Below, piece by piece: positions 8,243-37,982 of a stretch of DNA of 39,168 nucleotides. The notes under the pieces were generated by a model. That model did no database searches, was not told the origin of the DNA, and saw only the letters and a list, made by a program, of their open reading frames with translations. Made by a program: the position numbers and the translations under genes. Source of the DNA: a virus. The first letter of the stretch is position 1. Every line of letters starts with the position of its first letter. Location: the IMG/VR virus record IMGVR_UViG_3300005096_000118, positions 1 through 39,168 of that record; one strand, written 5' to 3'.

Positions 8243-8743
8243 GTGGGAACTGGCATACTAGAGGTGGGTTTTAGAGGGGTGCTTGATAGTGTCCCGGAGA
8301 TATTACGTCATTTTAATGCAGCAGTTTCTAGTGGTGGTGTAGCGGGAACAACTACGCTGCTTGATTATACGTTAATTGGTGGCCTGCTAAGGAAAAATGA
8401 TTCTATTCGTATATGGTCGTTTTGGTCTTGTGATAACACCGCTAATACAAAAAACGCCACCTTTAGTTTTGGGGGTAATGTATTTTTATCTAACAATCTT
8501 TCAAATGAATCTTCTTTTAATGCCGTGACTATTATTCATAATAATAACTCAGTAACAGCGCAAAAGGCACATAGTAAGTTTCCACAGAACGGTATCAGTT
8601 TTCAGGAAGAATCAAGCGCAATACAGGTTTTCGCTGTTGATACTACGGCCGATGTTAATATTGTTTTAAGCGCAAATGGCATGACCGCTACCGAGAACCT
8701 TATTTTAGAGAGCTGTACTATAGAATTGGTAAGAGGCACGTAA
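8243..8743 (+). CDS. Putative tail fibre / receptor-binding domain protein
   Basis: A 166-residue protein starting at a GTG two bases after the previous stop. The opening V-G-T-G-I-L-E-V-G-F resembles that of the next gene (M-G-A-S-V-L-E-A-G-F), suggesting a shared attachment tip. The rest has a beta-rich pattern (L-L-D-Y-T-L-I-G-G-L-L-R-K-N-D-S-I-R-I-W) common in the C-terminal domains of phage fibres. The start is set by this N-terminal match and by tight coupling; a longer frame reaches 8162 inside the previous gene. Confidence 0.5.
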   Translation: MGTGILEVGFRGVLDSVPEILRHFNAAVSSGGVAGTTTLLDYTLIGGLLRKNDSIRIWSFWSCDNTANTKNATFSFGGNVFLSNNLSNESSFNAVTIIHNNNSVTAQKAHSKFPQNGISFQEESSAIQVFAVDTTADVNIVLSANGMTATENLILESCTIELVRGT

Positions 8744-10905
8744 TGGGTGCCAGCGTTTTAGAAGCCGGTTTTTCTCGTGACAGTTTATTCTTTGATGTCT
8801 CTTGTTTTGGGGCTGTGGGAAACGGTAAAGATGAGAGCACTGCAATACAGTCTGCTTTAAAAGCAGCTAAATTGTTTGGCGGTACAGCTCGTCTTGATTC
8901 TACTAAAACATATTCAGTAAGTAAGTCATTGGAATTATATACTAATACTACTTTTGACTGGAACGGCGGAAAATTAAAACTGGCTAATGGTTCTGATTGT
9001 GTTCTACTAAAGAATAGGGACGCGCAGAATGCTCTAAAAGGAACGCAAGTGGTTGTATCGGGAAGCGTTGCTACTGTGACTGAAAAAGGTCACACAAAGG
9101 TTATAGGAACTGATGTTTATATTGAAAACGCTTTAGGCAACACTACATTAAACGGCGTTAAAACAGTTACTGGCGTTTCTGGTAATACCTGGACTTTTGC
9201 GGCGACAGGAGTTAGCCCTACAAATGCAGCTAATGATCGTATCTTTATATCTAATTATAATCCTTTGGTCGGCTCCAACTTCACAAGGGCGGCGAATGTT
9301 GTCACTGTTTTAGGAGCTAATCATGGCCGCAGGATAGGCGATCATGTTTATGTGGCTGGGCTTGGCGGAACAAACAGTTTTAACGGTATGCAAGTTGTTA
9401 TTGGTGTTTCATCTACTGGCTGGGATTATAACAACACTGGCATAAATGAAACCGCTACCGGAACCGCGCAACTTCTTGGCAATACAAACATACATCTAAA
9501 GAATGTTGATATTGACTGTAATAGAGCTGCTAATGATAACGATCAGTTCCAAGGTAACAGCATCCTGTTTTTAAACATGGGTAATAGCTCGGCTGATGTA
9601 ATACGCGCAGATAACGGTATTGTAAGAACTTTGGCACTGTACAACTGCGGTGAGATTTATATTCCTCGTTTTTATGCTGATAACGGTCATGTTGGAATAC
9701 AAGCTGAATCGAACTGCGACAATATTGAAATTGGCGTGGTTCGTGGCAACTCAATGACCGATGATGTGCTTGCCTGGGGCGTAATTGCTCAAGGTAGTTT
9801 TTGGGGTGATACCGCCTGCCCTTCTGGTTCAGGAAGTAATGGTTTATTAAGAGTTGGATCAATTCGCGGTGAATCAGAAACGTCATTCTTTAAAACATTT
9901 TGCGAAACTGGTTACGATAACGGAACAGTTATTATCGATAGCATAACCGGCATAGGGCAAGCAGTGGCCGGTGATACGCAATCTGGCGCTAGTGGCGGAA
10001 CGATGAAGCGGTTAGAGATAAAACATCTTGATACTACTCCTGTAGGTACAACACAAACAACATTCAATATACAAGGATTCTCGACCATAAACTTCTTACA
10101 GCTTGGAAGTTTTGAAAACAATGCTGCTGGCTCTACCGTTGCATACGCGAACATATCGTCTGATGTGGATAATTTCATCGTCAACGATATGAACGACGAG
10201 CAGTATCACACAAGCGCCGTTTTTAATATCGGAAGCACTATAAATAACATATCTGTAAACAATTCAAGATTAACTGCCGGTAATAGTGGGTGGGTGTTTG
10301 TGGTTTCTGCTGCTGGTGTTGTAAATAACCTTAGATTAAACGGTATTGAGTTTAGCGGCAACGGTTCAGGTTCAAATTATTATGGCGAACTTATATTTGC
10401 ATCAACCACGACAAGTGTAATAAAACATATCTGGATAAAGGGATTATCTTCTACTACTGGGCAGTGCAGTTCTTTATATAGAAACCTGAGTCAGTCATCT
10501 ACGCCGGTAGAAATAGATATTGATGGGTTGACTATAGAAGCCGCAGGCAAAGCAGGTTCAGGTTTCACATCATCTGGTACGGCTTCTGTCGATCACAATA
10601 TACGATTTAGCGGTATTAATGCCGAGGCCCTTGCGAATAACTTATTCCAGTTTGGCGGTACAGGTACTCATCGCATCGTTGGACGAGGTCTTTATCATCC
10701 AGCTGGTAAACTTGCATTACTTAGTTTTGAGACTCCAAGCATATCTATTGATTGTTCCGAGGCGAAGTTAGATCTTGGCGCTAATGCGGGCGCACCGCCA
10801 GCGCGTTTAGTACCCTTGCCTGGCGATCATCTTTGGAACACTAATGCAACCGGTACTGGACTGTATGGTAGAACAGCTGCCGCAGCTTGGCAGCAAGTTT
10901 TCTAA
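8743..10905 (+). CDS. Tailspike with pectate-lyase-like beta helix
   Basis: A 720-residue protein. Residues 15-95 show the classic opening of the pectate-lyase superfamily (F-D-V-S-C-F-G-A-V-G-N-G-K-D-E-S-T-A-I-Q). Long N/G/S-rich beta-helix rungs follow to about residue 660. Two related inserts of about 65 residues lie at about 100-240, each with the pattern V-x-T-V then N-G then V-x-G-V. Such spikes usually bind and often cut surface polysaccharide. The catalytic residues cannot be placed from sequence. The start overlaps the previous stop (TAATG). Confidence 0.75.
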   Translation: MGASVLEAGFSRDSLFFDVSCFGAVGNGKDESTAIQSALKAAKLFGGTARLDSTKTYSVSKSLELYTNTTFDWNGGKLKLANGSDCVLLKNRDAQNALKGTQVVVSGSVATVTEKGHTKVIGTDVYIENALGNTTLNGVKTVTGVSGNTWTFAATGVSPTNAANDRIFISNYNPLVGSNFTRAANVVTVLGANHGRRIGDHVYVAGLGGTNSFNGMQVVIGVSSTGWDYNNTGINETATGTAQLLGNTNIHLKNVDIDCNRAANDNDQFQGNSILFLNMGNSSADVIRADNGIVRTLALYNCGEIYIPRFYADNGHVGIQAESNCDNIEIGVVRGNSMTDDVLAWGVIAQGSFWGDTACPSGSGSNGLLRVGSIRGESETSFFKTFCETGYDNGTVIIDSITGIGQAVAGDTQSGASGGTMKRLEIKHLDTTPVGTTQTTFNIQGFSTINFLQLGSFENNAAGSTVAYANISSDVDNFIVNDMNDEQYHTSAVFNIGSTINNISVNNSRLTAGNSGWVFVVSAAGVVNNLRLNGIEFSGNGSGSNYYGELIFASTTTSVIKHIWIKGLSSTTGQCSSLYRNLSQSSTPVEIDIDGLTIEAAGKAGSGFTSSGTASVDHNIRFSGINAEALANNLFQFGGTGTHRIVGRGLYHPAGKLALLSFETPSISIDCSEAKLDLGANAGAPPARLVPLPGDHLWNTNATGTGLYGRTAAAAWQQVF

Positions 10906-10994
10906 ACTGTAAATTTAATAGGACGATAAAATGAAAAAACTAATATTGCTTTTACTCATATCTTTTAACGTGGCTGCTGCACCAGTTGACCCTG

Positions 10995-11292
10995 TTATAA
11001 ACCTAAATATCACCATTTAACGCATCTAAAATATCCTGCGGGTTTCCGGTTAGCGTTTGCTGTAATGCGGTAATTGTTAACCTCGCTTGTTCTGCCTTAC
11101 CCTCAAAGTAGCCTTTATTAAAACCACTCAGCGCAAGGTTTGCTTCTTTCTCAAATTCAACTGCTTTTTGTTCAAGTAATGCTTCTAATTTACTTTTCAT
11201 ATTTGCCTCTAGTTCGGTTTATAACAAGGCATTGCAGCAGACTCCGCTACACGCCGTTTCACTCTGTTCCGCTACGCGGCTGAATTTAGGCG
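10995..11292 (+). mobile_element. Integron gene cassette inserted in phage gene
   Basis: This 298-bp unit has the layout of a mobile cassette. It begins with TTATAA after a target G, holds one short ORF filling almost all of its length, and ends with an attC-like site whose last base is the G before TTAAAG. Precise removal restores the host gene frame. The target site GTT is a minimal integrase core site, so this looks like an insertion at a secondary site, probably by the IntI encoded at 36074. A second GTT at 10985 in the same frame is an alternative left boundary. Confidence 0.75.
11003..11200 (-). CDS. Cassette-borne small protein, antisense to attC
   Basis: A 65-residue, mostly helical and probably coiled-coil protein (E/K/A-rich first half). 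GAGG stands seven bases before its ATG, and a TG-T-TATAAA extended -10 element lies in the attC region upstream. It ends eight bases from the cassette boundary, so the cassette is this gene plus attC. The ORF reads against the attC orientation, so it must use its own promoter. No family is recognised. Confidence 0.6.
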   Translation of the reverse strand: MKSKLEALLEQKAVEFEKEANLALSGFNKGYFEGKAEQARLTITALQQTLTGNPQDILDALNGDI

Positions 11293-11298
11293 TTAAAG
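11219..11298 (+). other. attC site of the displaced cassette
   Basis: The 80-bp site has a left core TTATAAC and a right core GTTAAAG. Inner arms A-T-T-G-C-A-G-C and G-C-T-G-A-A-T pair except for one extra G in the left arm. That unpaired base in the L'' arm is the orientation mark of attC sites, so the site points along the + strand. The right half CGGCTGAATTTAGGCGTTA is typical of attC sites in gammaproteobacterial integrons. Confidence 0.8.
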
Positions 11299-11697
11299 AG
11301 CCTCTTAGCAATCTTAACTGCGCATATCCAACCGAACGTGAAAACGGTGACCCACTCGACTGGGCAACCGAGGGCGACACAATCAAATGGTACTACGGCT
11401 TTGTAACTGGCAAGTATGAGTTCGGTCCGGTCAATACAACGGCTTGTCAGTGGGTAGTTGATAACAATTTGTTTGCTAATAAGACGCTTTATGTAACAGC
11501 AACAGCAACTGACAAACAAGGAAGAGTGTCTACTTATACAACTGATGAATGGGTACATGAGGTGCTGCCAATAGTGCTGCCCCCAAAGCCGCCAACGGTA
11601 ATGCCAACGACTCCGGCAACGGCTGGACAAGTAGCTACACCGTTGCCATAACAGCACTGTGGGCAATAATAGTAAATCAATGGTTGAGGATAAGACG

Positions 11698-12002: not shown

Positions 12003-12027
12003 ATCGCCTGTCAAATAATTTTAAAAA

Positions 12028-12049
12028 GTTTTCACACGTTTCGGACGAC
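12028..12049 (+). promoter_or_regulatory. Late-operon motif, copy 3 (head/tail operon)
   Basis: The sequence TTTCACACGTTTCGGACGAC is a near-consensus copy, 26 bases after the terminator and 70 bases before the first gene of the capsid operon. It probably drives the long unit from 12119 to about 25828. Confidence 0.75.
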
Positions 12050-12118
12050 CGGTAAGCAGTTTTTATGCAAACTGATTGCCATTGAGTATTTCACCTAATA
12101 AAAACGGGGAACGAAGGC

Positions 12119-25828: not shown

Positions 25829-25832
25829 CAAA

Positions 25833-25854
25833 TCTTTCACACGTTTCGGACGAC
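25833..25854 (+). promoter_or_regulatory. Late-operon motif, copy 4 (lysis operon)
   Basis: The sequence TTTCACACGTTTCGGACGAC begins five bases after the lipoprotein stop and 30 bases before the lysozyme. It is identical to copy 3 over 20 bases. TTATAT at about 25876 is a possible -10 box, but distances differ between copies. Confidence 0.75.
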
Positions 25855-25884
25855 AGCGCCACTGATTTTACTCATTATATCCGC

Positions 25885-35303: not shown

Positions 35304-35363
35304 GTTTAACGGCGGCGCTCACGGGCGGCGTGTTTTGCCGTCCGGTGCAGCTTTTTGTTATGT
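35304..35363 (-). other. attC-like site of cassette 2
   Basis: Read on the minus strand, this 60-bp site begins ACATAAC, ends GTTAAAC (exact GTTRRRY core), and has inner arms that pair as GCTGCACCGGACGGC with GCCGCCCGTGAGC. The two unpaired bases fall in the L'' arm of the minus strand, so the site points away from intI, as in normal integrons. Confidence 0.7.
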
Positions 35364-35723
35364 GTGTTTACGGGAGCAACTTAGGGTAGCTGTAAATGAC
35401 TGGCTTGATCTCCAGCAGACAGCAAACATATAAAGTAAAAAGCTTTGATGACGATTGAAGTAATAACTTAAAGGCTCGGGTTGCTCCGCGTAAGCGCATA
35501 TTTAATTTGGAGACGAAAGATGAGGCTAAGTGAGCAATTAAAACAAGATCACGAATCTGGTGATTTCGGCAAAGCACTGGAAGGTTACGCGGAAATAGCC
35601 GCTGAACTTGAAAGGATTGCGGAAGCGGTTTCACATATCGGGGTGGATTGGGGTTATGGAAAATATCAAATGTTACAAAACGATCAAATGGTAGTGCTGG
35701 CGAAGAAGTTATTAAACACATAA
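35310..35723 (-). mobile_element. Integron cassette 2
   Basis: A 414-bp unit bounded by G|TT at both ends (minus strand): TTATGTG at its start and the attC-like site at its end. It holds one ORF on the opposite strand plus 150 bases of upstream DNA with a promoter, TTGATC (35405) and TATAAA (35429), 18 bases apart. Confidence 0.65.
35521..35723 (+). CDS. Cassette 2 protein (67 residues)
   Basis: A small acidic helical protein (M-R-L-S-E-Q-L-K-Q-D-H then A-E-I-A-A-E-L-E-R-I-A-E-A-V) with GGAG eight bases before the ATG. The frame stays open to 35481, but that region has no ribosome site. Its stop codon is formed by the core site at the cassette edge (ACATAA|C). No family is recognised; cassette proteins are often unique. 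Confidence 0.6.
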
Positions 35724-35842
35724 CGGCGGCGAATTGAGGGGTTGCGATTATGTACTGTGAATTTTGCAATGAATATTTTGAATACTGCACATGTGAGAAG
35801 GGTATTGCTTATCGCAAATCCGCCTCGAATGAATTGTTGGGA
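35718..35842 (-). other. attC-like site of cassette 1
   Basis: On the minus strand it runs from TCCCAAC through AATTCATTCGAGGCGG to GTTATGT. The left half is the classical attC start (A-A-C-A-A-T-T-C-A-T-T-C). TTTGCGAT pairs with ATCGCAA and GAGG with CCTC, with extra bases in the left arm. At 125 bp it is a long attC. A perfect 17-base inverted repeat from 35722 to 35898 overlaps it and gives an alternative, longer hairpin. Confidence 0.6.
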
Positions 35843-36036
35843 GGCCGCGAAGCGGGCAACAACAATTCAGGCGATGGCAAACTCAATTCGCCGCCGTTGG
35901 GAAGCCATGAGTGCCGTCGTTGCTTAGGTAACGGATATACAATTTTCCACGAGGATGGCAGAACTTATCAGGATAGATGTTCATATTGCGGAGGCACGGG
36001 AGCGAAGTGACTGAAAGGAGCTTCGCGGCTTCCCAA
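35724..36036 (-). mobile_element. Integron cassette 1 (next to attI)
   Basis: A 313-bp unit between the attI-like core GTTGGGA (36031-36037, minus strand) and the attC-like end at 35724. It carries a zinc-finger ORF on the opposite strand that overlaps attC. An 18-base near-perfect inverted repeat (35836-35853 and 36020-36037) lies within it. Confidence 0.55.
35750..36010 (+). CDS. Cassette 1 protein, DnaJ-type zinc motif
   Basis: An 86-residue protein. It begins M-Y-C-E-F-C then C-T-C-E, and ends with C-R-R-C-L-G-N-G and C-S-Y-C-G-G-T-G, two halves of the DnaJ-type zinc fold (CxxCxGxG). The middle (residues 27-50) is low in pattern because it is encoded by the attC hairpin arms. GAGGGG stands eight bases before the ATG. 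The function is unknown; it may bind protein or RNA. Confidence 0.65.
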   Translation: MYCEFCNEYFEYCTCEKGIAYRKSASNELLGGREAGNNNSGDGKLNSPPLGSHECRRCLGNGYTIFHEDGRTYQDRCSYCGGTGAK

Positions 36037-36073: not shown

Positions 36074-37096
36074 ATGAAACTATCAGAAGTTATTAATTCA
36101 GTACGCAATACCATGCGATTCAGGCACATGTCTATTCGCACGGAAAAATCGTACATAATCTGGATTAAAGATTTTTCAAAATGGTGTAAAAATCACCCTG
36201 TTGGTGGCCACGGTGACAAACTTAAAGCTTATTTGACACATCTGGCACGAACAAGGAACGTGGCAGCAGCTACCCAACGCCAAGCACTAAATGCCATCAT
36301 ATTTTTATACAAGAATGTATTAAAAATTGATATTGGCGATATTTCAGGGTTCGCCTATGCTAAAAAGCCACGTACTTTACCTGTTGTTTTATCACAACAA
36401 GAAATAGCAGCGTTATTACCAAACATTGCTGGACAAAACTATTTAATCGTTGCGCTGCTTTATGGCGCAGGTTTACGATTAAACGAGGCTTTATCTATTC
36501 GCGTCAAAGATATCGATTTTGATCGTGGCATTATTACTGTTCGCCAGGGTAAAGGAAACAAGGATCGAGCAGTTATGTTGCCATCAACAATTGCTGATGA
36601 TTTGCAGTATCATATTAAAGAAGTAAAACGCATTCACAGTCGTGATTTGGCAGAGGGTTTTGGCGATGCTTACATGCCAAACGCTTTGGATCGCAAGTAC
36701 CCAGGCGCGGTTAAGTCGTTTTCATGGCAATTTGTTTTCCCCGCCACTCGCATTGGCCCTGATCCACGTACTGGTGCTTTACGGCGGCATCATATTCATG
36801 ATTCCGCGGTGTCAAAGGCCATCAAGTCAGCAGCACGGGTGGCTGGCATTAAAAAGCCTGTAGGCGCTCATACAATGCGCCACAGCTTCGCTACGCATTT
36901 ACTTGAATCAGGCACTGACATTCGTACTATTCAGCAGCTACTAGGCCATAAGCACGTTTCAACGACGATGATTTATACGCATGTTTCAAAATCAGGCGCC
37001 GCTGGTGTTGCTAGCCCATTGGAAAATTTAGCCGGGGATGTTTCGCCATCTCGCGTTTCAACGTGGCCACATCAACGGCAAGGTAGCGCAGGGTAG
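36074..37096 (+). CDS. intI: Integron integrase (IntI)
   Basis: A 340-residue tyrosine recombinase. Arg135 (G-A-G-L-R-L-N-E-A-L), Lys160, His266/Arg269 (H-T-M-R-H-S-F-A-T-H-L-L), His292 (L-L-G-H-K-H-V-S-T-T) and Tyr301 (M-I-Y-T-H-V) are all present. The IntI-only patch lies at about 191-240, with A-L-D-R-K-Y-P-G-A then W-Q-F-V-F-P-A then D-P-R-T-G-A-L-R-R-H-H. This patch separates IntI from Xer proteins and is needed to bind folded attC DNA. The N-terminus (R-H-M-S-I-R-T-E-K-S-Y) is also typical. It reads away from the cassettes. No LexA box is visible upstream. The enzyme looks functional. Confidence 0.95.
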   Translation: MKLSEVINSVRNTMRFRHMSIRTEKSYIIWIKDFSKWCKNHPVGGHGDKLKAYLTHLARTRNVAAATQRQALNAIIFLYKNVLKIDIGDISGFAYAKKPRTLPVVLSQQEIAALLPNIAGQNYLIVALLYGAGLRLNEALSIRVKDIDFDRGIITVRQGKGNKDRAVMLPSTIADDLQYHIKEVKRIHSRDLAEGFGDAYMPNALDRKYPGAVKSFSWQFVFPATRIGPDPRTGALRRHHIHDSAVSKAIKSAARVAGIKKPVGAHTMRHSFATHLLESGTDIRTIQQLLGHKHVSTTMIYTHVSKSGAAGVASPLENLAGDVSPSRVSTWPHQRQGSAG

Positions 37097-37982
37097 TATG
37101 GATATCTTTATGCCCAAGAAACGTTTGCACGACTCTCAGATCGCAGCCACGCTCTATGAGGCGTGTGGCAAAGGCCGCGCGCAACAGGTGCGGATAAAAA
37201 CCTTCCCATGGTCTCCTGTTAGCGGTGGCGTTTATTCTGTCATAAGCGCGGCCGATACCAATAGCTGGCCGAGCATAACGATTAACGATTTCCCAAATAC
37301 TTCGCGGTGTCGAAAACGATTTTCCGCGATGAGTAATAAACAGGCTCGAATTTTTACCTGGGCGAGCTGTACGGCGTTTTTTAAACCATTCATGCAGCAA
37401 GAAGTGCATTGGTACCGAGTATGGCAACCGGCGCGATTGACGGCCATCTGCAGACAGCATGAGCAGCCTGTGATCATCGAGCACGCTGCCAATAGTGAGG
37501 CCGACCACCTCGGCAGCAGTAATACCAGTTTCATAGATCAGGCGCATAATTACATGATCTCTAAAACCAACAAAAGCGGTCAAATCAGGCTCAGCAAGAA
37601 GGCGGCCAATTTGAGACTCACAAAGCAAATGCGGCAGCTTTTTTGGTGCCCGGTGCGACTTTGGAATAAGATCATTAATGGCCGTTTCGACATAACCGGA
37701 TTGATAAGCCCATCGATAAAACGACCTCAATACAGTCAGATCCAGATTAAAGGTAGACACCTTTACCTGGTGCCGCCGCGCTCTAATCCACTGGTGTAAA
37801 GAGTCTTTCGATGGCGATAATAAAACAACAAAAACCGACCACCGCAACAAAACAGATCGATACAATCGACGTGTTTCAGTGCTTCTATTACCGAAATTCA
37901 GGTAACAATCATACCGTCTTAAAATCTCTTGGTCAGAGACTTCAAGTTTACTATAAGACGGTTTTAACACGGGTAAAGACAT
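37011..37982 (-). CDS. Tyrosine recombinase lacking the first catalytic Arg
   Basis: A 323-residue protein with a core-binding domain (residues 15-110) and a catalytic domain. His265/Arg268 (H-L-L-R-A-A-F-A-T), His291 (F-L-G-H-K-D-I) and Tyr300 (L-R-Y-L-A) are present. However, the box that normally reads T-G-x-R reads E-T-G-I-T-A-A-E-V, so Thr155 replaces Arg I. It may be inactive, depend on a partner such as host XerC/D, or act as a regulator. Its last 86 bases overlap the end of intI on the opposite strand. Confidence 0.75.
   Translation of the reverse strand: MSLPVLKPSYSKLEVSDQEILRRYDCYLNFGNRSTETRRLYRSVLLRWSVFVVLLSPSKDSLHQWIRARRHQVKVSTFNLDLTVLRSFYRWAYQSGYVETAINDLIPKSHRAPKKLPHLLCESQIGRLLAEPDLTAFVGFRDHVIMRLIYETGITAAEVVGLTIGSVLDDHRLLMLSADGRQSRRLPYSVPMHFLLHEWFKKRRTARPGKNSSLFITHRGKSFSTPRSIWEIVNRYARPAIGIGRAYDRINATANRRPWEGFYPHLLRAAFATRLIERGCDLRVVQTFLGHKDIHTTLRYLAVDVATLKREMAKHPRLNFPMG
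37913..37962. repeat. Nested inverted repeats in recombinase 5' region
   Basis: ACCGTCTTA (37913-37921) and TAAGACGGT (37954-37962) are perfect arms. A second hairpin TCTCT-N5-AGAGA lies inside. They sit in the first 25 codons of the minus-strand recombinase. They could be a self-regulation site, a recombination core, or an RNA hairpin that limits translation. Confidence 0.5.

Follow-up and report, generated by a model that had tools for sequence, protein, structure and literature searches.

A displaced integron cassette very likely splits a tail-region gene of a phage that encodes its own integron integrase

Results

The cassette and the gene that it interrupts

In the 39,168-bp virus record IMGVR_UViG_3300005096_000118, called the window below, a 298-bp integron gene cassette lies inside a gene of the tail region. 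The sequence makes it very likely that an integron integrase put the cassette, which probably comes from the phage's own integron, into a G|TT that is not an attI, in the manner of secondary or attG sites. An intact ortholog in another viral contig, the attC of the cassette, the complementarity between its R'' box and its first bases, and an R' box that derives from the target together lead to this reading. The features are collected in Table 1.

Table 1. Features of the cassette insertion and of the integron in the window
Feature	Position	Strand	Remarks
5' part of split gene	10931..10994	+	signal-peptide-like N-terminus; ends on G of GTT codon; uninterrupted in L005
Displaced integron gene cassette	10995..11292	+	298 bp between two G|TT cuts; this length gives the best fit to L005
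Cassette ORF, 65 aa	11003..11200	-	AGAGG ribosome-binding site at about 11206-11210; strand opposite to attC
attC of displaced cassette	11219..11298	+	R'' 11219-11225 TTATAAC; extrahelical G 11234; R' 11292-11298 GTTAAAG; covariance model R1 27.8 bits, E 3e-5
3' part of split gene	11293..11651	+	begins with TT; frame still open
Second attC, of array cassette beside intI	35304..35363	-	R1 22.8 bits, E 7e-4
Array cassette	35310..35723	-	414 bp; GTTATGT at its start exactly complements its R'' ACATAAC
Array cassette ORF, 67 aa	35520..35723	+	strand opposite to attC; 11 other viral contigs have relatives
intI, integron integrase, 340 aa	36074..37096	+	TIGR02249 412.9 bits (cut-off 265); PDB 2a3v E 8e-79

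The left junction (10994|10995) reads CCCTG|TTATAAACC and the right junction (11292|11293) reads TTTAGGCG|TTAAAGAGCC. Joining the flanks gives a single 140-aa frame, MKKLILLLLISFNVAAAPVDPVKEPLSN..., as the first-pass annotation of this DNA had predicted. It had also proposed a search of related phages for the uninterrupted protein, which is found at locus L005 of the contig IMGVR_UViG_3300005096_000116: the intact ortholog has 140 aa, is homologous to both halves, and is 88% identical to the rejoined protein without a gap across the junction. When every left/right pair of cuts around the junction was tried and scored for its fit to L005, removal of 298 bp fitted best (51/60 bases), and the equally good cut points, 10992-10997, include the IntI cut point G|TT; the cassette limits given by the annotation are right to the base. 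This empty-site evidence consists of one genome and one empty relative, whose junction codon is TTG rather than GTT. A pattern scan of viral contigs for the 5' end of the split gene returned only the contig of L005, which is otherwise unrelated to the window phage: the two have in common only the split gene and the next gene, and the DNA of the L005 contig shows partial relatedness to Vibrio phages.

The interrupted frame now stops after 29 residues, and the insertion would inactivate the gene, leaving a truncated product of that length. The dN/dS against L005 is 0.13 overall, 0.17 in the 5' part and 0.11 in the 3' part; the overall value and that of the 3' part point to purifying selection on the gene, with no decay since the insertion, which may be recent. 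The downstream half had been described as having no start of its own, and this holds in part: a TTG at 11232, within the attC, opens a 139-aa frame, but no ribosome-binding site is evident for it by eye. Neither the 140-aa protein in its intact L005 form nor the 3' half of the split gene has a family or PDB match, and the predicted structure of the L005 protein is uninformative (pLDDT 43). The label of tailspike given earlier to the neighbouring gene at 8743-10905 is backed by no family match.

The attC sites

The attC sites were located with a covariance model, R1, made from 22 bacterial attC only, which belong to Pseudomonadales integrons located via intI and were picked by their orientation to intI; R and L boxes covary among these references. 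R1 shows two matches only in the window up to an E of 10, the better at 11219-11298, where the first-pass annotation had placed an attC with an extra base in its left arm, and the other at 35304-35363. As controls, the known integron of Shewanella phage M16-3 yields 12 sites and 119 kb of three comparison phages none. R1 missed the attC sites of TJE1, P12002L, the first 50 kb of H101 and Rctr41k, and the orientation counts given below are without these. The extra base of the left arm, the bulged G at 11234, occupies the position of the extrahelical base in the 22 reference attCs.

Other searches are less direct. A position-weight scan ranks 11219-11298 first and the second attC next, with a best score that 2 of 60 shuffled genomes also reach; what carries the weight is that attC, junctions, ortholog and intI coincide, rather than this score alone. 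Strict scanners for RYYYAAC/GTTRRRY hairpins missed 11219-11298 owing to an R'' of TTATAAC and an R' derived from the target, and an Rfam search gave no attC. The lowest-energy fold of the attC strand at 11219-11298 differs from the canonical hairpin.

The circle of a cassette has a full attC, and the first bases of a cassette, once inserted, are therefore bound to be complementary to its R''. In the displaced cassette these bases are GTTATAA, an exact complement of the R''. The R' differs from the R'' at 2/7 positions, because the target gene supplied its TTAAAG, which is sequence of the interrupted gene. According to the accepted mechanism, a double-stranded G|TT target recombines with the bottom strand of the cassette attC in its folded form. 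Such an event would leave the TTATAA of the cassette at the left edge and would rebuild the right attC with the TTAAAG of the target.

A small transposon (MITE), with GTTA as a 4-bp target duplication and only a secondary likeness to attC, would explain the GTTA at both ends and the inverted CCTAAAT that the ends have in common. This reading of 10995-11292 is rejected as highly improbable: it leaves aside the match to the attC model, the extrahelical G, the complementarity of R'' and cassette start in two cassettes and the presence of intI in the same genome, and the window contains no second copy of the 298-bp unit.

The first-pass annotation had also suggested a reversible switch, in which IntI excises and reinserts the cassette and so turns the gene on and off. 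Both halves are open and undecayed and intI is intact, which would suit a switch, but a recent insertion equally predicts intact halves. There is no attC at the left junction, the R''/R' pair on the right shows the two mismatches given above, neither an excised form nor a regulated alternation is known for this locus, and the data show no sign of excision, of a mixed population or of regulation. A switch is therefore improbable, and of the earlier proposal the insertion itself by integrase action at a secondary GTT is retained, with a genuine attC and a gene that is intact in a relative. The two outcomes that the annotation had named as refuting it did not occur: R1 accepts 11219-11298, and the intact gene of the relative matches both halves.

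The insertion is precise, stands at a G|TT outside attI and attC, and its site is empty in a relative, as in secondary-site (attG) insertions. It is established that IntI1 can insert cassettes off target, into secondary G|TT sites (PMC10127599, PMC4618277), and PMC12901181 treats attG as a class of sites. As cited in these and related papers, the precedents include aadB in RSF1010 and the plasmid pIE723 (Recchia and Hall 1995, in PMC10127599) and the attG insertions of Loot et al. 2024 (in PMC11023631 and PMC12901181). The present case resembles these in the precise insertion of a single cassette and in the right R' derived from the target, and differs from them in the phage genome with its own intI, in the identifiable gene that was hit and in the cassette gene reversed with respect to its attC.

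The phage integron

The window encodes four tyrosine recombinases, of which only that at 36074-37096 is an integron integrase. It has the IntI-specific region. Its full length aligns with that of 2a3v, an integron integrase of Vibrio whose structure is solved, and the catalytic positions (R, K, H, R, H and Y) coincide. The displaced cassette is 24.8 kb from intI in one direction and 14.0 kb in the other, in agreement with the earlier estimate if the record is circular. The array is located to the left of intI, with a cassette boundary (G|TT, 35723/35724) 350 bp from intI and an ORF between them. The array gene reads towards intI, aligned with the upstream genes of the + strand, so an ordinary Pc would not read the array genes.

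Several other observations concern this region. A further cassette is suggested by GTTGGGA boxes; it would span about 35724-36034, with a second cassette boundary near 36034 and an 86-aa ORF on the opposite strand; the attC model gives no match there. Inverted repeats lie between the array cassette and intI: a perfect 17-bp pair (35722-35738/35882-35898) and a 19-bp pair (95%; 35835-35853/36020-36038). intI overlaps tail to tail a XerC-like recombinase gene (37011-37982), and since the counterpart of the latter in the relative G004 stands without intI, this lineage appears to have gained intI.

The enzyme that acted is most likely the intact IntI of the phage itself. Within the same reading of a secondary-site insertion, an integron integrase of the bacterial host could have catalysed it instead: several phage contigs show attC without a detectable intI, and a related IntI is encoded in 52 of 146 genomes of the order of the bacterial genome G002. 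This is possible, though the phage itself carries an intact intI and an array, and the same model accepts both of its attC sites, so the host enzyme is the less probable of the two.

The phage integron resembles the Pseudomonadales chromosomal integrons, of G002 and others, in its attC type, TAACAAG...GGCGTTA, and in its IntI (about 45-50% identity). Unlike the window phage, those integrons have cassette genes mostly on the same strand as attC. Phage genomes with intI and/or attC are also described by Qi et al. 2023 (PMC9892861), in a work which reports that 5 of 6 tested phage attCs are functional with IntI1. Sections 3, 3.1 and 3.4 of that paper describe no displaced single cassettes with an empty relative and no systematic reversal of genes, and the prophage M16-3, as it appears in its set, shows the ordinary cassette orientation, unlike the window phage.

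Orientation of cassette genes

The displaced cassette and the array cassette both bear their gene opposite to the attC, as read directly from the ORFs; the first-pass annotation had not noted this for the displaced cassette. Genes on the same strand as attC are a usual, non-defining trait of integron cassettes, and the ORF 11003-11200 (- strand, with attC on the + strand) departs from it. Orientation was scored more widely as the strand on which an ORF of at least 50 aa has its stop codon, TAA, in the outer TAAC box, a strict test in which the two attC sites of the window do not score. IMG/VR viral sites show 0 on the same strand, 16 opposite and 1 both; 12 of the 16 are on contigs fetched via a reversed gene (3 of them abut that gene), and the other 4 are on contigs fetched by intI alone and are unbiased but few. 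The bacterial-type control (Pseudomonadales chromosomes and M16-3) shows 17 on the same strand and 1 opposite (Fisher p 1.5e-8 against the viral sites), and a wider control at class level shows 13 same, 3 opposite and 3 both.

Among the 11 contigs with relatives of the 67-aa ORF, six have attC matches and no detectable intI. In the small phage protein family of 35520-35723 and its relatives (L082-L092), the first 30 residues (MKLSEQLKQDHECGDFGKALEGYAERA) hardly vary and the C-termini diverge; attC cassettes account for some members, and others have no attC match. A set of viral contigs without detectable intI (L082-L100, G152, G153, G154, G156, G159 and G162) contains attC clusters with genes opposite to attC, which often stop at a TAA in the complement of R'. 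In G152, attC sites are found in separate parts of the genome and on both strands.

A search of the open literature gave no earlier report of reversed phage cassettes. A distinct architecture for phage integrons is slightly more probable than not: when the array is upstream of intI, reversed cassette genes would be read by a phage operon towards intI, phages would share a cassette pool that orientation keeps apart from the bacterial one, and the integrase would also scatter cassettes through the genome, where they can break genes. Expression from the phage operon may favour cassettes with reversed genes. Such a rule is simple; it would separate phage from bacterial cassette pools and would explain the expression of phage cassettes without an ordinary Pc promoter.

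Nature of the displaced cassette

Because its gene reads against the attC, as in other phage cassettes, the displaced cassette probably comes from a phage cassette pool. Its 65-aa protein has a homologue, 53% identical over residues 1-47, in a Pseudomonadales genome, in a stretch adjoining a recombinase-like gene where the attC model finds no attC; no relative was found among viral contigs or phage or plasmid records. Within the tail region, where the cassette lies, its gene runs antisense to the neighbouring genes, and no promoter-like site was found on the strand of that gene within the cassette. For these reasons the insertion would seem to be a side effect of integrase activity, inactivating a gene, rather than a device. 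It is rare to catch a natural cassette insertion that breaks a gene and for which an empty relative can be shown. The present one is in a phage that has an integrase of its own, and would mean that a phage genome can be remodelled by integron activity beyond the array itself.

The phage genome and its relatives

The record has an exact 91-bp terminal repeat and the genome is therefore probably circular. Bases 1-25000 show no DNA-level match among phage records. Two relatives identified by terminase, G003 and G004, have part of the proteins of the window in common. Neither an attC nor an intI above the family cut-off is present in the contig of L005, in G003 or in G004. Three copies of a 29-nt repeat around ACACGTTTCGGACGAC (2044-2072, 12025-12053 and 25830-25858) each lie directly upstream of a gene; the repeat is a candidate phage promoter or operator.
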